A DNA stretch of 64,000 nucleotides from Arthrobacter sp. MMS18-M83 (GTDB lineage Bacteria; Actinomycetota; Actinomycetes; Actinomycetales; Micrococcaceae). The DNA lies in the NCBI RefSeq assembly GCF_026683955.1, contig NZ_CP113343.1, positions 1,488,001-1,552,000 on the forward strand, read 5' to 3'. Shown piece after piece: positions 43,228 through 55,272 of this stretch. A program made the position numbers and the translations under genes. The notes beneath the pieces were generated by a model. The model did not search any database. It was not told where the DNA came from and was given only the letters and a program-made list of their open reading frames with translations. The stretch's first letter is position 1, and each line of letters opens with the position of its first letter.

Positions 43228-43914
43228 TCACACGCGGGCCGGCTTGCGGGCTAGAAGGTAGGCCTGCGGGGTTTTTTCATGCTTGCCGTCTGGTTCGCGA
43301 AGCAGTTGTGCTTCCACAACAAGGCCTGCCTGACGTAGGAGTTCCGCGATGCGGCCCGGCGGCAAGCGGTAGGCATCGAGGTCGATCTCGTGGCCATAGG
43401 CGAAATCCAGGTGCCGGGGTTCATCTCCCGCCTGAAACGCCAGCAGGAGCAGGCCGCCGTCCCGGAGGGCCCGATGGAATTGGGCGAACACCGCGGGCAA
43501 CCGAGCCGGCGGAGTATGGATAATCGAATACCAGGCGACAATGCCACCCAGCGCGCCGTCCGCCAGAGGCAGGGCCTCCATGGAGCCTTCATCAAACTGC
43601 AGGCCGGGGTGATCCCGGCGGGCTACCGCCACCATCTCCGGCGACAGGTCGATGCCGAAAGCCGTGAGGCCAAGCGAGTCCAAATGCGCCGTAATCCGTC
43701 CGGGGCCGCAACCAAGGTCCGCAACTACCCCTCCTCCATCCGCCTCTACGAGTTCCGCAAAGGTGCCGAGCATGGCCCGGTCAAACGGCTTCGAGGCTAG
43801 TTCGTTGCGCAGGAGTTCGGCGTAGTCGGAGGCTACCGTGTTGTACGCGGCGCGGGTGGCATGCACGTCCGCGGGTTCAGTCATGCCCAGTTCCGTCATG
43901 CCCAGTTCCGTCAT
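43228..43914 (-). CDS. Class I SAM-dependent methyltransferase
   Basis: 228-aa methyltransferase. Motif I VADLGCGPGRITAHL near residue 65, acidic motif II GIDLSPEMVAVAR near 86, motif III GGIVAWYSIIHTPP. No substrate can be deduced. The start region is a perfect triplicated 15-bp unit giving three in-frame ATGs (43914, 43899, 43884); I take the first. Convergent with mutY. Confidence 0.85.
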   Translation of the reverse strand: MTELGMTELGMTEPADVHATRAAYNTVASDYAELLRNELASKPFDRAMLGTFAELVEADGGGVVADLGCGPGRITAHLDSLGLTAFGIDLSPEMVAVARRDHPGLQFDEGSMEALPLADGALGGIVAWYSIIHTPPARLPAVFAQFHRALRDGGLLLLAFQAGDEPRHLDFAYGHEIDLDAYRLPPGRIAELLRQAGLVVEAQLLREPDGKHEKTPQAYLLARKPARV

Positions 43915-43920
43915 GCCCAG
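43882..43920. repeat. 15-bp tandem repeat over the methyltransferase start codon
   Basis: TCATGCCCAGTTCCG occurs twice in full and once more in part, so each unit presents an ATG preceded by GGGC on the minus strand. Gain or loss of a unit would keep the frame and change the N-terminus by five residues (MTELG). Confidence 0.85.
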
Positions 43921-44170
43921 AACCCTACTGCTTCTTCGCGCGCTGACCGAGAAAGACCTACCGACCCTATTCACGGCTATCGGAAGACCCGAGATTTTCG
44001 CTGGCGGCCGGGGTGGGGATATGGGGTGTATCGAGAGGACTTCGAGCAGTGGTCGGAATTCCTGAGGCAATGTTGCGTTGGCAGCAAAGCAACGTGTACG
44101 CCGTGTGCCTTTGATCAGAGGGCGACAGGGTTATTGGCACCACCACCCCCGGCGATTTCGACTTGGGAAA

Positions 44171-44437
44171 TGAGTCTGCGCGAGGTCCCAGCGGAAGGTT
44201 GGATTTACGGCGCCTACAATCCGAGGGCATCGGGCCCTCGCGACGTGTCCTTTCGGGGATTACTCGCGTGCCATGTTGGAGGCGCAGCGGTACTTCAAGT
44301 GGTTGCGCTGGAACCTGGCCTGCCCGCTGCGCGGCGACGCGCTCCCACCGGCAGTCATTGTGCCTAACGTGTGTCGCTCGGCCGGCGAGCCCGATGGCCG
44401 ACGCCCGAAGGAATGCCCGAACACGCCTAAGCCCTGA
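44171..44437 (+). other. Possible small gene or gene remnant
   Basis: The 550-bp gap between the methyltransferase and the membrane-protein gene has no convincing long gene. One plus-strand frame, open from 44171 to TGA 44437, becomes strongly GC3-biased from about 44258. It contains YSRAMLEAQRYFKWLRWN and a Cys/Pro/Arg-rich end; an ATG is at 44273 (54 codons). No ribosome site is seen and no family recognised. It may be the 3' end of a decayed gene at the edge of the accessory island. Confidence 0.3.
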
Positions 44438-44465
44438 TCTTGTCAGTTGCTCGCGGTATATGGGG

Positions 44466-45404
44466 CTATGCATTTCTCAGGGCGGCATCCATGAGAAGAA
44501 AGAACAATCCTGAGGCAAAGGCAACCGTGATGGCGACGACGAGCAGATTCCCGAACCAGTCCTTCAACCCACGACTTTCGAAGCGTTTCGCGCGCCGTTC
44601 CAGACGCTGACTGCCTGGGCCGTGGATGAACCCGACATACGCGCACCAGTCAAAGAGGGAGGACCAGCTCCGGAGGAGAAGGACCCCTGACATGACGACA
44701 GCGCCGAGCAGCACAACGACGAAGAAGAAACTGTAAGGGGGGTCGGCTTTGAAGAGTTCCATTGCCCGGCCGATGAGGTCAGGCAGTTCTCTCAAGATTC
44801 CCGGAGGTGCGGGGTGTGCCGCCGATGCCGCTTCGACTTTCTGACTGATGGATTCAATGCTGTTGCCACGCCAGCTCTGCGTGGATACACCGATCCAGGA
44901 GTAAATCGCGGCTGCCACGGCAATCACAACCTCAACGACGGTTCCCACGGCTTGCCAGCTCCAGAGACCAGAGGCCGACGTTCTGCGCACGGCGATGAAC
45001 AAAGTGACCAAAAGCCCGCAGGCCATGCCGGCGGTGAACCACATCAGCGGCACGCGGAGCGTGAGGAACAATGCGCCGGCAATGAGCGCCCCTGCCACTA
45101 CGGCCACTATCTCTGCATGCTGGTCTTCGTCGGATTTCGCTCGTTGAGGGGAGGAAATGCTCATGTTCTGATGAACGGTAGTCCGGGCGTCAACGATTTG
45201 GACGTGGCCATCGAAGCTATCCCCGGCCACAACGACTTGGTTGCCGTCCCGGTTCCGGGCATACACTTTCTCGGCTGTTTGATGTCCCTTCTCCGGGCGC
45301 TTCCACCGTGTTTTTCGTGTGAGGAGACCGATCAGCGCTGAGAACACCCATCCGATGGCCGCAGCCGTGACGCTGGAGAGCGTACCGCTCCAAAAACTAT
45401 CCAT
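44466..45404 (-). CDS. Unknown polytopic membrane protein in the RiPP-like cluster
   Basis: 312 aa. One N-terminal helix (about 5-28) is followed by a soluble segment with GNQVVVAGDSFDGHVQIVDART. Five more hydrophobic segments then cluster around 98-140, 148-172, 222-245 and 288-308. No family recognised. It starts 33 bp after the MFS gene on the same strand and so is probably the last gene of the cluster. Immunity, export assistance or an unrelated role are all possible. Its base composition is slightly lower in GC than its neighbours. Confidence 0.6.
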   Translation of the reverse strand: MDSFWSGTLSSVTAAAIGWVFSALIGLLTRKTRWKRPEKGHQTAEKVYARNRDGNQVVVAGDSFDGHVQIVDARTTVHQNMSISSPQRAKSDEDQHAEIVAVVAGALIAGALFLTLRVPLMWFTAGMACGLLVTLFIAVRRTSASGLWSWQAVGTVVEVVIAVAAAIYSWIGVSTQSWRGNSIESISQKVEAASAAHPAPPGILRELPDLIGRAMELFKADPPYSFFFVVVLLGAVVMSGVLLLRSWSSLFDWCAYVGFIHGPGSQRLERRAKRFESRGLKDWFGNLLVVAITVAFASGLFFLLMDAALRNA

Positions 45405-45437
45405 TGAACGTCCTCATATCTGCTAGGTATCGATCTT

Positions 45438-46685
45438 CTATTTCAACTGGCGGATGGTTTTGATGTTGAGCGCGATTGTCGCGGTGAGGATCATGATGAT
45501 TCCTCCAGCGAGGAAGGTTCCTCGGAGGAACCCGGCATCGGCGAGGGCTCCGAGCAGCACGGTTCCGACGGGCTGGAGCACCAGCCCCCCGGTCATGAGG
45601 AGGGACATGACCCGTGATTGCATGTCTTTGGGTGCTGCCCGTTGAACGACGGAGATGTAGTACGTCATCGCTGCGGCGTTCAGGATTCCGCCGATGGCCA
45701 GGGAGGCGACCGCGCCTGCAAAAGGGACGAACGGCAGGATGGTCAGGAAAGGGGCCTGGATGATGTTTAGCCACAGAACTGCCCTGACACTGCGCAGGGA
45801 TTCGCTTTTCATGTAGGCGCTTGCTACCGATCCGATGACGGCGCCGGCTCCGTACCCGGAGAGCAGGATCCCCATGGACAGGCTTCCGCCGGACTGCTGC
45901 GCCAGAAGGGGCAGGCCCACGTAAAGCTGCCCGGCAGTGACAAGGTCGGTGACCGAATCAACGCAGAGCAGCGCAAGCAACCATGGGGTGGCGAGTGCAT
46001 ATCTCAGTCCGGCCATGGTGGATGCGAGCAGACCGGCGCGCTTCTGAAGGTCGGGTAGTTGGCCTTTTGTGGTTTTGCGGGCTGCAGCGAGGACGGATGC
46101 AGAGGTGAGCGCACCGAGAAGGAAGCTGGCGCTGTTGACGGCGATCGCCGCTGCAGCGCCGAGCAGGGCGACGGCGATACCGCCCAACAGAGCCCCGAAG
46201 AGTTGCGATGAACTTGTCACCGCGCCAAATACGCTGTTTCCCTTTTCGAAGTCCCTTTCCGCCAGGAGTTCCGGGGTGAGCGACCGCAGCGCGGGGCTGA
46301 AGACCCCGGAAATGATGCTGCTGCAGAAACTGATGCAGACAATCGCCGGATAGCTGTACCCGGCTTGCAGAAGGACAAGAAGGGCTATGGCACCTGAGAG
46401 GAAAAATCTTGCGAGGTCACATCCGAAGATGGTTTTCAACGCTCCGTACCGGTCTGCGATTGCCCCGCCGAAGACGGTGCCCGCGAGGGTTCCTAACAGT
46501 CCGGAGGAGGTGATGACAGAAACGCCGATGGCACCGTGCCCGCTGTTCAGCGCCCACATGGCAAGTGCGATCATCTGGAACGGGCCGGCGAACTTCGAGA
46601 CTGCCTGCCCGCCCCAGGTGAAGTAGAACTGTTTCCACAGGGAGACCTCGACTCCCGCGTGTTCGGCAACCTCGGCGGTCGACAT
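45438..46685 (-). CDS. MFS exporter (EntS/MFS_3-like) of the RiPP-like cluster
   Basis: 415-aa major facilitator protein with 12 helices. The loop 2-3 motif GGAIADRYGALKTI (G-x-x-x-D-R-x-G) near residue 73 and the overall pattern match the EntS/multidrug MFS_3 group. It begins four bases after the radical SAM stop, so the two are co-translated. The likely job is export of the modified peptide, taking the place of the ABC exporter more usual in such clusters. The cargo is inferred. Confidence 0.85.
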   Translation of the reverse strand: MSTAEVAEHAGVEVSLWKQFYFTWGGQAVSKFAGPFQMIALAMWALNSGHGAIGVSVITSSGLLGTLAGTVFGGAIADRYGALKTIFGCDLARFFLSGAIALLVLLQAGYSYPAIVCISFCSSIISGVFSPALRSLTPELLAERDFEKGNSVFGAVTSSSQLFGALLGGIAVALLGAAAAIAVNSASFLLGALTSASVLAAARKTTKGQLPDLQKRAGLLASTMAGLRYALATPWLLALLCVDSVTDLVTAGQLYVGLPLLAQQSGGSLSMGILLSGYGAGAVIGSVASAYMKSESLRSVRAVLWLNIIQAPFLTILPFVPFAGAVASLAIGGILNAAAMTYYISVVQRAAPKDMQSRVMSLLMTGGLVLQPVGTVLLGALADAGFLRGTFLAGGIIMILTATIALNIKTIRQLK

Positions 46686-46689
46686 GAGT

Positions 46690-47826
46690 TTATGCCGCTG
46701 CTTGCTGGCGGCGCTTGTCCAACACGGTCTCTATGTGCTCGAACAGGCTATAAAGCGTTTCGCAGTGCACGGTCTTGCGTGAGAACCCGTCCTTTTCCGA
46801 GTAGCGGGTACTGATGCGCCCTCCGCCGCAGATGTCCAGAAACTTACAGCCGGAACATTCTTCCGGAACGAGCAGTTGCTGGTCCCGGCAGAGTTGGAAG
46901 AACTCATGATTGTAAAGATCATCGAAGGAATCGCGGTAGATGCTGAGCCCGAGCTCAGTCATTCCGTCGGCGCACGCCCGGAAGTTGTCTGTCGGCTGCA
47001 TGGAACCATCCGTTTCGAGGACCGCAACGTTGACCGGCGCGAAGCCGAACTGGTCGCTGTAGCTCGGAAGTCCGGCGACGGCCCGGATGGCGTCCTGGAA
47101 GAACCGGATACTTACTTCGGCGTTGTCCTCCTGGATCCACGCATCGAAGATATCGATCACCAGGTCCTTGTGCGCGTAGCCGTCCAACGGAGCATCCAGC
47201 GGCTGGACGTAGTTGGCCTCCGGAAGGACAAGATTGATGGTCTTCACCCCCAGGCCACGAAGGTGCTCGTAGATCAGCTTGCCATTTTCGAAGGGGTTCA
47301 AGACGCTGATGGTCCCGACCTTGAGGCCTTTGTCGCCGAATTTTTGTGCAGACTTCAGTCCCCGGATTACCCTGTCGTAGGAGCCTCTTCCGGCAAGGTC
47401 GACTCTGGCTGAATCGTGGGCTTCACGGGTGCCGTCCAGGCTGATGCCGACGTTGACCGAGTATCTGGCCAGCAGCTCGGCCCACTCATCGTTAAGCGTG
47501 ACGGCGTTGGTGGTGATCTTTCGGTGCGTGGTGATGCCGGCGGCGTCGATCTTGTCGAACTGCTCCATCATCCACAAATAGTCCTTCTTGGGCTGAAGAA
47601 GTGGCTCGCCGCCGTGGAGGGTCAGATGGATGTCGGAGATTCCGTTGGCGAGGCAGTGTTCGATGATCTTGGGAACTGCGTGTTCGATGGTCTTGCGCGG
47701 CATAAAGCGGGGCCGGTTCTCAAACGACGTATCCTGCCCGTGGTAGAAGTAGCAATACGAGCAGTTCAAATTGCACCACTCCACTGTCTTGATGATGAAC
47801 GTGTCGATTCCGCTGCCTGCACCCAT
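46690..47826 (-). CDS. Radical SAM/SPASM peptide-modifying enzyme
   Basis: 378-aa enzyme. The radical SAM cluster motif C-x3-C-x2-C (CNLNCSYCYFY) is near residue 18, and the LTLHGGEPLL SAM-binding strand near 70. ISLDGTREAHD and the tract LETDGSMQPTDNFRAC lead into a C-terminal SPASM region with CSGCKFLDICGGG and a later HCETL. The ETDGS...C...C-x2-C-x4-C-G-G-G layout and size resemble peptide maturases of the FxsB/XyeB/GrrM type, which cross-link aromatic side chains. Start ATG 47826 has AAGGTG six bases upstream (a GTG three codons earlier is the alternative). It follows a 23-codon gene, its presumed substrate. Confidence 0.88.
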   Translation of the reverse strand: MGAGSGIDTFIIKTVEWCNLNCSYCYFYHGQDTSFENRPRFMPRKTIEHAVPKIIEHCLANGISDIHLTLHGGEPLLQPKKDYLWMMEQFDKIDAAGITTHRKITTNAVTLNDEWAELLARYSVNVGISLDGTREAHDSARVDLAGRGSYDRVIRGLKSAQKFGDKGLKVGTISVLNPFENGKLIYEHLRGLGVKTINLVLPEANYVQPLDAPLDGYAHKDLVIDIFDAWIQEDNAEVSIRFFQDAIRAVAGLPSYSDQFGFAPVNVAVLETDGSMQPTDNFRACADGMTELGLSIYRDSFDDLYNHEFFQLCRDQQLLVPEECSGCKFLDICGGGRISTRYSEKDGFSRKTVHCETLYSLFEHIETVLDKRRQQAAA

Positions 47827-47849
47827 GGATTTCACCTTGCTAGTTGGAT

Positions 47850-47896
47850 GTCCGGCCCGGGCGGAAGACTCTTCGACTCCCCCGCCGAGGCCGGAC
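47850..47896 (-). promoter_or_regulatory. Stem-loop between precursor gene and radical SAM gene
   Basis: GTCCGGCC and GGCCGGAC (8-bp perfect arms) enclose a second 5-bp stem GGCGG/CCGCC. There is no T-run. Such hairpins between a precursor and its enzyme often stabilise or attenuate transcript so that peptide exceeds enzyme. Confidence 0.6.
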
Positions 47897-47917
47897 TAGG
47901 ACTACTGCCGTGGAGGA

Positions 47918-47989
47918 TTACTCGCTTGAGAACGCCCAGGCGGTGATCTTGTCGTTGGACTCGCCGAGTGCCTTGGTGATGATTTCCAT
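47918..47989 (-). CDS. Putative RiPP precursor peptide (23 aa)
   Basis: A 24-codon frame encodes a peptide beginning MEIITKALGE and ending ITAWAFSSE. Support: GGAG lies seven bases before the ATG, 20 of 23 sense codons end in G or C, and the other frames over the same bases do not. It sits immediately upstream of a radical SAM/SPASM gene and an exporter. The C-terminus has W-A-F and F-S-S, both fitting the aromatic-x-x three-residue cyclophane rule; F-x-S is the FxsB target motif, here with one residue after it rather than two. The acidic/amphipathic N-terminal part would be the leader. Function of the product is unknown. Confidence 0.75.
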   Translation of the reverse strand: MEIITKALGESNDKITAWAFSSE

Positions 47990-48160
47990 GTGATGCTCCG
48001 TTTCTTCATTGATTTTGATGACTCGCCGAGGCCAGCCGCTTTGGTACCGGCATCTGACCCCGACCCAGGACAGCGCCCCGGGTCCGGGTCAACCTTCATC
48101 GCGTTCCGGCCACGAGTGGCCGCCCCCAAATCCAGCTCTGAAGACGCCTGCAAACAAATA

Positions 48161-48194
48161 TTTGCATAGATTTATTTGCAGACCAAGCTTTGCA
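48161..48194. promoter_or_regulatory. Three TTTGCA direct repeats, 14 bp apart
   Basis: TTTGCA occurs at 48161, 48175 and 48189, exactly 14 bp apart, with an inverted copy TGCAAA at 48149-48154. The stretch is AT-rich in an otherwise GC-rich window. It lies in the divergent promoter region of the peptide gene and the regulator. The third copy overlaps the -35 hexamer TTGCAA, which is itself palindromic. Confidence 0.6.
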
Positions 48195-48218
48195 AAGGAA
48201 TTTCCTTTGGAATGGTAA
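48190..48218 (+). promoter_or_regulatory. Promoter of the winged-helix regulator with embedded operator-like palindrome
   Basis: TTGCAA (48190-48195), a 17-bp spacer and TGGTAA (48213-48218) precede the ATG at 48229 by 10 bases, so the transcript is leaderless or nearly so. Within the spacer region lies AAAGGAA-T-TTCCTTT (48194-48208), a perfect 7-bp-arm palindrome. It is well placed for autorepression. Confidence 0.6.
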
Positions 48219-48228
48219 GTTGTGTCTC

Positions 48229-48864
48229 ATGGACGTCTCTGGCATGGATCAAGAAAGCTTTGTCGCTGGCCAGCGACAGAGCCGGATCATGGGTTCGGCT
48301 TCCCTGAAAGCCCTCGCGCACCCGCTAAGGATCGAGATTCTGGAGGTGCTCACGGTCCAGGGATCCCAAAATTCCTCCAGCCTGGCCACACTCCTGGGCG
48401 AGTCCAGCGGAGTGACGAGCTATCACCTCCGTCAACTTGCCAAGCATGGATTCGTGCACGAAATCGAGGGCAAAGGCTCCTCCCGGGAACGCTGGTGGGA
48501 GCGTTCCCGGGGGTCGGTGGGGTTGGATACAGGCGAGAGCTCCGAGACGCCGGCCGACGACGAGACCGTTCGGATGGTCGCCAAAGAGTTCGCCCAACGG
48601 CGCACGGAAGCGCTGATGGACTTCCTCGACAATGCCTGGCAGGTCACCGACGGCGAATGGAAGGACGCCGGGGTCATCACGACCTTCAACCTGCGGATGA
48701 CACCGGGGCAACTGGAAAAGCTCGCAACACGTGTCCGGGACCAGATCGCAGGTCTAGCCGCGGAACTGGACGAGGAAGGCGAGCAGGAAGGCTCCCGCCC
48801 GGTCCAAATACACTTCAACGCCTTCCCGCTGCTCCCCAACCAACAGCACCGAAATCAAGCCTGA
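48229..48864 (+). CDS. ArsR-like winged-helix transcriptional regulator
   Basis: 211 aa. The winged-helix domain spans about residues 15-95: ASLKALAHPLRIEILEVLTVQ, then the recognition helix SGVTSYHLRQLAKHGFVHEIEG (key T-S-Y-H-L-R-Q-L) and a wing with RERWWERS. The remaining 110 residues are helical. Proteins of this layout are common next to actinobacterial transporters. Divergent from the peptide/radical SAM/MFS genes, so it most likely controls them. Start 48229 fits the promoter; ATG 48244 is an alternative. Confidence 0.85.
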   Translation: MDVSGMDQESFVAGQRQSRIMGSASLKALAHPLRIEILEVLTVQGSQNSSSLATLLGESSGVTSYHLRQLAKHGFVHEIEGKGSSRERWWERSRGSVGLDTGESSETPADDETVRMVAKEFAQRRTEALMDFLDNAWQVTDGEWKDAGVITTFNLRMTPGQLEKLATRVRDQIAGLAAELDEEGEQEGSRPVQIHFNAFPLLPNQQHRNQA

Positions 48865-49043
48865 GTCAGTACCCGACGATGCCAGCCACGGGCGCTCCGG
48901 TTTTTTGGGCGTCTGCAACGCCTTGTAGCGGCCTTGCGCCGTGAGGTCGCGGAGCTGCAACGGTCCGTAGATGTCTGTAACGATGTGCCTGCCAGTTGCC
49001 GAAATGGCGGTCCGGGAAGCCGCCGCAGGAATACGCTCAAATT

Positions 49044-53049: not shown

Positions 53050-55152
53050 CTATATCCCCAGTTCCTCAGGAACGGGGACGTCTTGCCCCAATACCTGCTT
53101 AGCCAAGAAGTGCTCCACCACGCCGTACCAGACCTTGGCGTGCTGTGGCTGCAGGATCCAATGGTTCTCGTCCGGGAAATACAAGAAACGGTGTTGGGTC
53201 TCGCCGTTGTCGTCGGCAGGCAGCCCGGAACTGGAGAGCAGTTCGTACCAAAGCCTCAGGCCTTCGCCGATAGGCACCCGATAATCCTTGTCGCCGTGGA
53301 TCACCAGCATAGGCGTATTGATCTTTCCAACATGGAGATGGGGCGAATTCTCCATAGCCATCTCTGCGGTCATTTCCTTGAGCCAATACTGCGAAGCGTC
53401 CGTGGTGGGGCCGAACTGGTCCAGGGCCCACAAACTGGCGTGCGTCACGATCGCTTTGAAACGGTCCGTCTGTCCGGCCACCCAGTTGGCCATGTATCCG
53501 CCGAACGACCCACCCATCGCGGCAGTCCGCGTCTGGTCAATCTCGGGCCGCTGGATCACCGCGTCAGTGATAGCCATGAGGTCCGTAAACGGAGCCTTGC
53601 CCCACTCACCCCAGCCGCGCTGGATGTATTTTTGCCCATACCCGGTGGACAATGCGGGGTCGGGCAACAGTACGGCGTACCCCTTCGACACGAGCAACCA
53701 GGGGTTCCACCGCCAGGTCCAGGCATTCCATGAGCCCAGGGGTCCCCCGTGGATCCACAGCAGCAGGGGCGCCGGATTCGCCTCCGAGGCCCCTTCCGGC
53801 AGCGCCAGGTAGGCCGGAACCCGCGATCCGTCCGCCGCGGCCGTCTCCACCCGCTCCAACGAACCCTTGATCTTGGGGCGCTGGGCCGGCGCTGGGAGGC
53901 GCTCCACTTCCCCCGTCACGAGGTCGATCCGCACGGCTTCCGCCGGGAACTCGTAAGAGCTGCGCAGCGCGAAGGCGCTCAGCCCGTCCGGGGAAACCAC
54001 GACGTCGGTGTACGCCGACGCGTCCTGCGTCACCTGGGTGACGGTACCGTCAGCGACGCTGGCCCGGAAGACAGGGGCGGCGCCGTCGTCGTCGGCTGTG
54101 ACGAGGAGCGAGCGCGCATCGGGAAGCCATGCAGCGGGACTTCCCCAGCGGTCCCAACCGGGCGCGAGCGGCTCAAGGTCAAGGGTTTCTCCGCTTGCGA
54201 CGTTCAAAACGTGGAGCTTGACCTGGGGCGCCTCCCCGGGGGTGCTGTCACTTTCACTGACGACCGCGATCCTGCTGTTGTCAGGGCTGACCGGGCCCGG
54301 GAAATAGCTCATCCCCTCATGGTCCAAAAGCACCTTGAGGGAGCCAGAGGCGACGTCGACGGCGGCGAGGACAAAGCGCGTATCGGCCTTCGCGAGCGGC
54401 TTGGCCAGGCTCGTGTAGATCGTGTTGCCGTCGGGGCTGACCACCGCGCGGGTGTTGCGGAGGTTGCCGCCGACGTCGGGAGTCAGATTGCGCAGCTTCA
54501 GGGGCGCAGTAGCGTCCACGGTCGCGGGCTTTCCGGACTCAGCCACGTCCCCGTTTTCCACGGCAAACAGCCTGGGCTGAGCTGGGCCCAGATCGGCGTC
54601 CCAGTAGCGAACCGGGTAGCCGGTGTGCAGAATGGCCGCCACCTTGTTGTCCTTGCGGCTCTTGCGCCGTTCCTCATCATTTTCCTCATCGGTGGAACCG
54701 GCCAGGACCGAGGCGGTCACGAAAGTGGCATCAGCGGCTGACGCGGCCATAACGCCCCCAACGCCACCCGCGCGGGAGTGCACCACCCGGGCCTCCCCGC
54801 CGTCTGCCGGGAGGAGCCACAAAGCGCTCACAGGATCGGCCTCAGGGCTGTCCGGGTCGGGGCGGGCCGAAGTGAAGTAGAGGTCACCGTTGGCGGCAAA
54901 CACCGCGCCGGTCTCGCCTTTGGCGCTGCGCGTGATGCGGCGCGCATGCCTCTTCCCCGCAGGATCGAGTTCCCAAAGAGCCGTCACGTATTCCGTTCCC
55001 TTGGCGTTGAGGGTGGAAACCGTGGTGACCAGGCGGCTTCCGTCCGGGCTAAGGGCCAAGCCGCCAACCCGGGGGATGGCCAGGTAATGGTCGAGATCGT
55101 GGAAAGGAGTTTCGGGTTGTGTGCTCGGGGTCTCTGAGGCATTCGAATCCAT
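53050..55152 (-). CDS. S9 family peptidase (acylaminoacyl/prolyl oligopeptidase-like)
   Basis: 700 aa. A beta-propeller of WD/PD40-type repeats (e.g. LALSPDGSRLVTT, AVVSPDGNTIY, VVSPDGLSAFALR) spans about 30-430. The alpha/beta-hydrolase domain follows: WIHGGPLGSWNAWTWRWN, nucleophile Ser in MGGSFGGYMANW, Asp in MLVIHGDKDYRVP, His in FPDENHWILQP. It hydrolyses short peptides in the cytosol. The ATG at 55152 is preferred; a GTG five codons upstream is possible. No signal peptide. Confidence 0.92.
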   Translation of the reverse strand: MDSNASETPSTQPETPFHDLDHYLAIPRVGGLALSPDGSRLVTTVSTLNAKGTEYVTALWELDPAGKRHARRITRSAKGETGAVFAANGDLYFTSARPDPDSPEADPVSALWLLPADGGEARVVHSRAGGVGGVMAASAADATFVTASVLAGSTDEENDEERRKSRKDNKVAAILHTGYPVRYWDADLGPAQPRLFAVENGDVAESGKPATVDATAPLKLRNLTPDVGGNLRNTRAVVSPDGNTIYTSLAKPLAKADTRFVLAAVDVASGSLKVLLDHEGMSYFPGPVSPDNSRIAVVSESDSTPGEAPQVKLHVLNVASGETLDLEPLAPGWDRWGSPAAWLPDARSLLVTADDDGAAPVFRASVADGTVTQVTQDASAYTDVVVSPDGLSAFALRSSYEFPAEAVRIDLVTGEVERLPAPAQRPKIKGSLERVETAAADGSRVPAYLALPEGASEANPAPLLLWIHGGPLGSWNAWTWRWNPWLLVSKGYAVLLPDPALSTGYGQKYIQRGWGEWGKAPFTDLMAITDAVIQRPEIDQTRTAAMGGSFGGYMANWVAGQTDRFKAIVTHASLWALDQFGPTTDASQYWLKEMTAEMAMENSPHLHVGKINTPMLVIHGDKDYRVPIGEGLRLWYELLSSSGLPADDNGETQHRFLYFPDENHWILQPQHAKVWYGVVEHFLAKQVLGQDVPVPEELGI

Positions 55153-55272
55153 GCTCCGATTCAACACGCAATGTGGGCCAGATCACAGAAGGTTCACTGA
55201 GAGTGAAACAGTGCTTTCAGATATTACGGGGGTTTACTCAAAGCCCGTTCGAACCTCGGAGTTCGGGAACGC

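Follow-up and report, generated by a model that had tools for sequence, protein, structure and literature searches.

A probable triceptide-type radical SAM peptide locus of an uncatalogued maturase clade in Arthrobacter sp. MMS18-M83

Introduction

Does a small gene set of Arthrobacter sp. MMS18-M83 produce a ribosomally synthesized and post-translationally modified peptide matured by a radical S-adenosylmethionine (SAM) enzyme (RaS-RiPP) and, if so, of which kind? The genes lie in a stretch of 64,000 nucleotides, hereafter the window (assembly GCF_026683955.1, contig NZ_CP113343.1, positions 1,488,001 to 1,552,000, forward strand), where an earlier note had described a tiny precursor gene, a radical SAM/SPASM maturase, a major facilitator superfamily (MFS) exporter and a membrane protein, divergent from a winged-helix regulator. 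We consider it probable (about 0.8) that this is a compact triceptide-type RaS-RiPP locus whose maturase belongs to an uncatalogued clade. Judging from its genes, the set very likely encodes the synthesis, cross-linking and export of a very small peptide with a ring.

Locus organization

Reading of the open reading frames (ORFs) of the window confirmed all five at the positions claimed. On the minus strand, the order of transcription was precursor, maturase, MFS exporter and membrane protein, with the winged-helix gene divergent. The features central to the argument are as follows (aa, amino acids).

47918..47989, minus strand: precursor gene, 23 aa, MEIITKALGESNDKITAWAFSSE, core ITAWAFSSE; evidence from counterparts in loci L085, L086 and L195, shuffles and a single occurrence per genome
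47850..47896, minus strand: hairpin of 47 bases in the 91-base gap between precursor and maturase; a hairpin is present in the same gap of 4/4 loci
46690..47826, minus strand: radical SAM/SPASM maturase, 378 aa, with CxxxCxxC at residues 18-25 and C-terminal cysteines 324, 327, 333 and 355
45438..46685, minus strand: MFS exporter (PF07690/PF05977; TIGR00900-like); a homologue directly follows the maturase in the other three loci

The loci compared with the window were L085 (from genus-mate G147), L086 and L195, the relatives being G147, G237 (same family) and G1602 (same order). Precursor, maturase and MFS genes were adjacent and in the same order in all four loci, and the conserved unit, all on the same strand, comprises the precursor, the hairpin, the radical SAM/SPASM maturase and the MFS pump. 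The spacings of 4 bases between maturase and MFS genes (46686-46689) and of 33 bases between MFS and membrane protein genes (45405-45437) agreed with the earlier note; its 28-bp-plus hairpin gap was right about the hairpin but not about its length. The start of the maturase is most likely ATG 47826 rather than GTG 47835, since the resulting 378 aa equal the length of the database copy (P0001).

Precursor peptide

Upstream of the maturase gene, G237 contained a 28-codon ORF at 69 bp and G1602 a 24-codon ORF at 75 bp, each with a ribosome site that was plausible by eye. With the window, this gave three distinct precursors among the four loci, all sharing ITAW[AS]FS[ST][DE] and a leader A-[LM] pair. 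The 10-residue core recurred within 500 bp upstream of the enzyme gene in both relatives, and 0/2000 shuffles of the local DNA of each were as good. A DNA pattern for ITAW[AS]F occurred once per genome, at the precursor, in the 4/4 genomes searched, and its reversed control had 0 occurrences in the same genomes. Because the core recurs beyond shuffles and the pattern is confined to the precursor, the small ORF is not due to chance. An aromatic-x-x core in a conserved short precursor gene beside the maturase was present in 4/4 loci.

No NCBIfam model matched any of the three distinct precursors at E values up to 10, and no ITAW.FS-like peptide was conspicuous among the few upstream ORFs listed for 36 distant loci, as expected outside the clade. 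Between the window and G147, precursor and gap (47827-47989) were identical over 163 bp, while 1063/1138 aligned bases of the maturase gene were identical; the complete identity of the former could reflect selection or recent exchange.

Maturase

The maturase contains a radical SAM core with CxxxCxxC (Pfam domain, 72.5 bits) and a SPASM-type C-terminal domain. Its identity to the enzymes of G147, G237 and G1602 was 95%, 66% and 57%, respectively. Among the 25 of 74 curated models listed, none attained its own cut-off. The top three were all cyclophane peptide maturases, namely FxsB (TIGR04269; 266.7 bits vs. cut-off 370; best E = 1.1e-93 over 35 clade rows), YhhB (NF041707; 263.5 vs. 445) and XyeB (TIGR04496; 177.2 vs. 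450); GrrM/OscB (TIGR04261) scored 118.6 vs. 310. The comparison with the FxsB, XyeB and GrrM models, which the earlier note had proposed, thus left the enzyme under each cut-off, and a StrB model was absent among the 25 families listed.

In the phylogenetic tree, the window clade (support 96/99) was separate from the FxsB/Haa/YhhB clade (99/98) and from the anaerobic sulfatase maturase (anSME) outgroup. Alignment A1 comprised the window protein and 34 of 120 listed proteins (979 found). Of the nearest 39, it omits P0001, which is the window's own protein, and P0002, P0016, P0024 and P0039, which are short or of partial coverage. A 92-row tree included 53 listed proteins, 36 loci, the window, G147 and G237, and a 41-row tree used a subset picked by hand, in which one long YhhB row was trimmed to 400 residues.

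Two outcomes had been set beforehand as counting against a RaS-RiPP core of tiny precursor, radical SAM/SPASM maturase and MFS exporter: lack of a conserved short ORF upstream of related enzymes, and a place of the maturase in a sulfatase-maturase clade. The claim withstood both, as a short upstream ORF was present in 3/3 other loci, one of them near-identical to that of the window, and both tree and cysteine comparison separated the maturase from anSME.

Proposed product and alternatives

According to the mechanism proposed here, the maturase would bind the ~14-residue leader of the precursor and abstract a beta-carbon hydrogen from the residue at position +2 relative to an aromatic one; bonding of that beta-carbon to the ring of the aromatic residue would then close a three-residue cyclophane inside W-[AS]-F-S-[ST]. 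The available text of PMC11002830 describes triceptide maturases as linking the ring of aromatic residue i to Cbeta of residue i+2, and MscB as forming C4(Phe)-Cbeta(Ser). The F-S-S of the window core fits the MscB linkage; by analogy, the likeliest ring would join C4 of the Phe to Cbeta of the Ser/Thr in F-S-[ST]. As W is conserved as strictly as F across the three distinct precursors, W-x-F may also be joined, and this second ring may share the Phe. A fused bicycle W-x-F-x-[S/T] made from a 23-28 aa precursor, with the Phe Cbeta bonded by Trp and the Phe ring bonded to the Ser/Thr Cbeta, would be a short, drug-like product with dedicated MFS export, but we regard it as rather doubtful. The leader would be trimmed by a host protease, the product exported by the MFS pump, and the operon repressed by the divergent ArsR-like protein until derepression. 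The gap hairpin may stabilize or partly end the transcript, keeping precursor transcript in excess over that of the enzyme.

Several points weigh against this reading. The available text of PMC11002830 does not name Thr as an acceptor, yet Thr occupied F+2 in 2/3 distinct precursors (F-S-T in G237 and G1602, vs. F-S-S in the window). Both the cross-link chemistry and the expression of the locus are predicted, and only three distinct precursors are at hand, the remaining clade members, with records from Streptomyces, Micrococcus, Couchioplanes, Lentibacillus and Bacillus among them, being represented by protein entries alone. No protease gene was recognized within the inserted segment that carries the locus. 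The gap hairpin has no T-run and was not among the sites of the terminator scan, which makes a terminator role weak. Regulator and membrane protein were not conserved across the loci.

A radical SAM RiPP with another modification, such as a Trp-centred cross-link alone, epimerization, hydroxylation or a different linkage, is unlikely. SPASM enzymes are chemically diverse, the W of the three precursors is as conserved as the F, and the two precursors with Thr at F+2 would require a quaternary carbon; nevertheless, the closest solved structure was that of ChlB, a cyclophane synthase, with a lead of ten Z units over the next family among the best 50 matches listed, and cyclophane maturases also account for the three closest curated models. 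It is very improbable that the small ORF acts as an attenuator (regulatory leader peptide) of the maturase-pump operon and not as a substrate: although the ORF is short, directly upstream and followed by a hairpin in 4/4 loci, its conserved part is the C-terminal aromatic core, of which the protein sequence is kept while codons vary (Ala GCC/GCG/GCT, Ser TCA/TCG/AGC), and no other conserved short ORF was noticed upstream of the maturase, a systematic search elsewhere not having been made. The reading as an anSME-like or a metabolic radical SAM enzyme whose neighbouring short ORF is unrelated to it was rejected as the least probable, given the enzyme's score (TIGR03942; 175 bits vs. cut-off 349.45), its place apart from the anSME outgroup, the absence of two anSME cysteines (first auxiliary cluster) and the conservation of the short ORF.

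Comparison with known systems

Judged from the sequences, enzyme and layout are of the triceptide kind, yet lie outside each named family tested. The window maturase was 27% identical to ChlB of the ChlB/ChlA system (PDB 9gm3, 9gmc). ChlBH is described in the available text of PMC12636437 as a radical SAM domain fused to an HEXXH hydroxylase, which is absent from the 378-aa enzyme, and, compared with ChlA, the precursors here are 23-28 aa long. F-x-S in the window core resembles the Phe-x-Ser triceptides of MscB.

The likeness to FxsB includes the best-scoring NCBIfam model and the same cysteine pattern in the rows aligned, whereas the score below cut-off and the separate clade in the tree set the enzyme apart. 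In addition, the upstream peptides of three annotated FxsB loci were longer (L174, 47 aa; L175, 63 aa; L200, 114 aa), HEXXH or N-acetyltransferase genes, for example, lay nearby, and no MFS gene was listed in those stretches. FxsB precursors end in FxSxx; by comparison, the FSSE of the window is F-x-S with one residue after S, and G237 and G1602 have F-S-T. Among the upstream peptides, F-S-S was repeated in L200 (GenBank FxsB) and F-N-S occurred in L174 (RefSeq FxsB). YhhB/YhhA, the second-best model, likewise has a short precursor upstream, but two YhhA peptides have a Y/H/R/N-rich end and YhhB falls in the separate clade. XyeB/XyeA and GrrM/OscB are cyclophane maturase systems too, and the XyeB locus compared has a short upstream precursor; the scores given above and, for the XyeA locus, HlyD and ABC transporter genes distinguish them.

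As separate observations on FxsB, locus L200 (1880-2224) lies on a plasmid of a Streptomycetaceae bacterium, and its 114-aa peptide carries a tandem GFSSYVSDDPAS-type repeat and is likely a multi-core precursor. In L178, a 36-kb Calothrix plasmid typed as mobilizable, an FxsB-like radical SAM gene lies between a NACHT gene and an integrase gene.

The distinctive traits of the predicted pathway are a precursor shorter than the annotated examples compared (47 to 114 aa) and an MFS gene as the sole recognized exporter; shorter precursors are known for biarylitides, according to the available text of PMC12951456. A literature search of partial coverage, with for example work on actinobacterial triceptide maturases and ChlBH outside it, gave no description of an ITAW-type core or of the clade, and a search with motif strings gave unrelated work only. 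If correct, this reading would extend the cyclophane-forming enzymes by a clade not yet catalogued, whose precursor is very short and whose three-gene layout is self-contained and easy to express, and the Thr-containing core would test the formation of a quaternary beta-carbon by such enzymes. The available text of PMC12257519 states that triceptide bioactivities are still to be elucidated, and the locus's own pump and regulator would offer a handle on that question.

Pump, membrane protein and regulation

The MFS proteins of the other three loci were 95%, 45% and 33% identical to that of the window. Its best model was TIGR00900 (145.8 bits, also below the cut-off of 319.6); the earlier label 'EntS-like' holds as to MFS but is loose as to EntS (56 bits vs. 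cut-off 324). The remaining features of the locus are listed below.

44466..45404, minus strand: six-helix membrane protein, with six hydrophobic stretches
48229..48864, plus strand: ArsR-like winged-helix regulator (HTH_20); the frame is open from TTG 48190, and the likely start by eye is ATG 48229
48055..48091, minus strand: hairpin in the precursor 5' leader (stretch z -2.63, 2/200 shuffles as good), with a matching inverted repeat in L085
48148..48212, no strand assigned: operator-like elements in the divergent region, namely TGCAAA repeats (14 nt, 4 copies, 71% likeness of the remaining copies to the first) and imperfect inverted repeats

Six helices had been claimed for the membrane protein, in agreement with the stretches counted. 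Its place as a component of the cluster found no support, since it had no homologue in the loci of G147, G237 and G1602 (best E 1.5 or weaker in L085, L086 and L195), and a role as a conserved immunity gene was rejected for the same reason. Relatives were found in 0/72 other genomes of the genus and numbered 3 in the protein database; the protein is probably strain-specific and possibly an immunity protein or a passenger. In G147, the pump is followed by a different, unrelated two-helix protein (L085 17001-17711). By eye, both proteins have a similar short motif in the soluble stretch before the helices (NSHIAGRDIYIT; GNQVVVAGDSFDGHVQIV).

The regulator was 96% identical in G147 and had no match in the loci of G237 and G1602; its conservation did not extend beyond the near-identical G147 cassette. 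G1602 has a different ArsR-type gene upstream, on the same strand. The divergent region of G147 (L085) contains a perfect 15-bp inverted repeat with the same TGCAAA word, and with the repeats of the window this makes autoregulation plausible in that pair; as the repeats are short, chance may also account for them.

The window gap folded at -43.8 kcal/mol (z -3.97; 0/200 shuffles as good). Gap hairpin z values in the four loci were -3.97 (window), -4.00, -5.80 and -3.60, and the hairpin sequence differed between window/G147, G237 and G1602. Scans gave 6 terminator-like sites vs. 4.5 in shuffles, and 0 sigma-70 promoter sites.

Distribution and mobility

43887..48937, no strand assigned: segment of 5051 bp (BLAST edges) that is inserted relative to G012, where 74 bp are found instead; flanks align at ~85%

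G012 was the closest of 29 genomes by the dihydroxyacetone-kinase region (87%). The guanine-cytosine fraction of the insert was 0.597 vs. 0.65 and 0.635 in the 5-kb flanks. No long repeats were found at the insertion edges, with only three 7-base matches there. The block colinear with G147 (45447-48838, 3392 bp, 94.5%) was shared while the adjoining sequence on either side was not, from which the regulator-to-pump unit appears to behave as a cassette; the gene set was probably acquired horizontally.

Relatives were rare in the samples, which overlap. With the own genome counted, they were found in 2/150 genomes of the genus, 2/295 of the family, 1/394 of the class and 1/396 of the order; with it excluded, in 1/4 of the genus of G237 (G237 itself), 0/392 of another genus and 1/247 of genus g37. 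Weaker matches in 6/13 genomes of one further sample (best E 2.7e-75 to 2.4e-88) were far below clade scores, and a scan of named genomes with loose patterns gave 479 relatives, of which the 80 listed were all ≤35% identical. A phage origin was rejected, as viral contigs gave no relative by the window protein and, by alignment, 79 loci that were all ≤33% identical. A plasmid origin was likewise rejected (173 plasmid records; best identity 35.6% among the best 30 listed).

Upstream of the G147 cassette, the minus strand carries two related ORFs of ~250 aa (MKIQ...DWFVPEV; L085 3334-4089 and 12204-12971). The window contains, in a part shared with G012 that lies some 4 kb past the insertion, an ORF (53050-55167) that, by eye, we take to resemble an S9-type peptidase.
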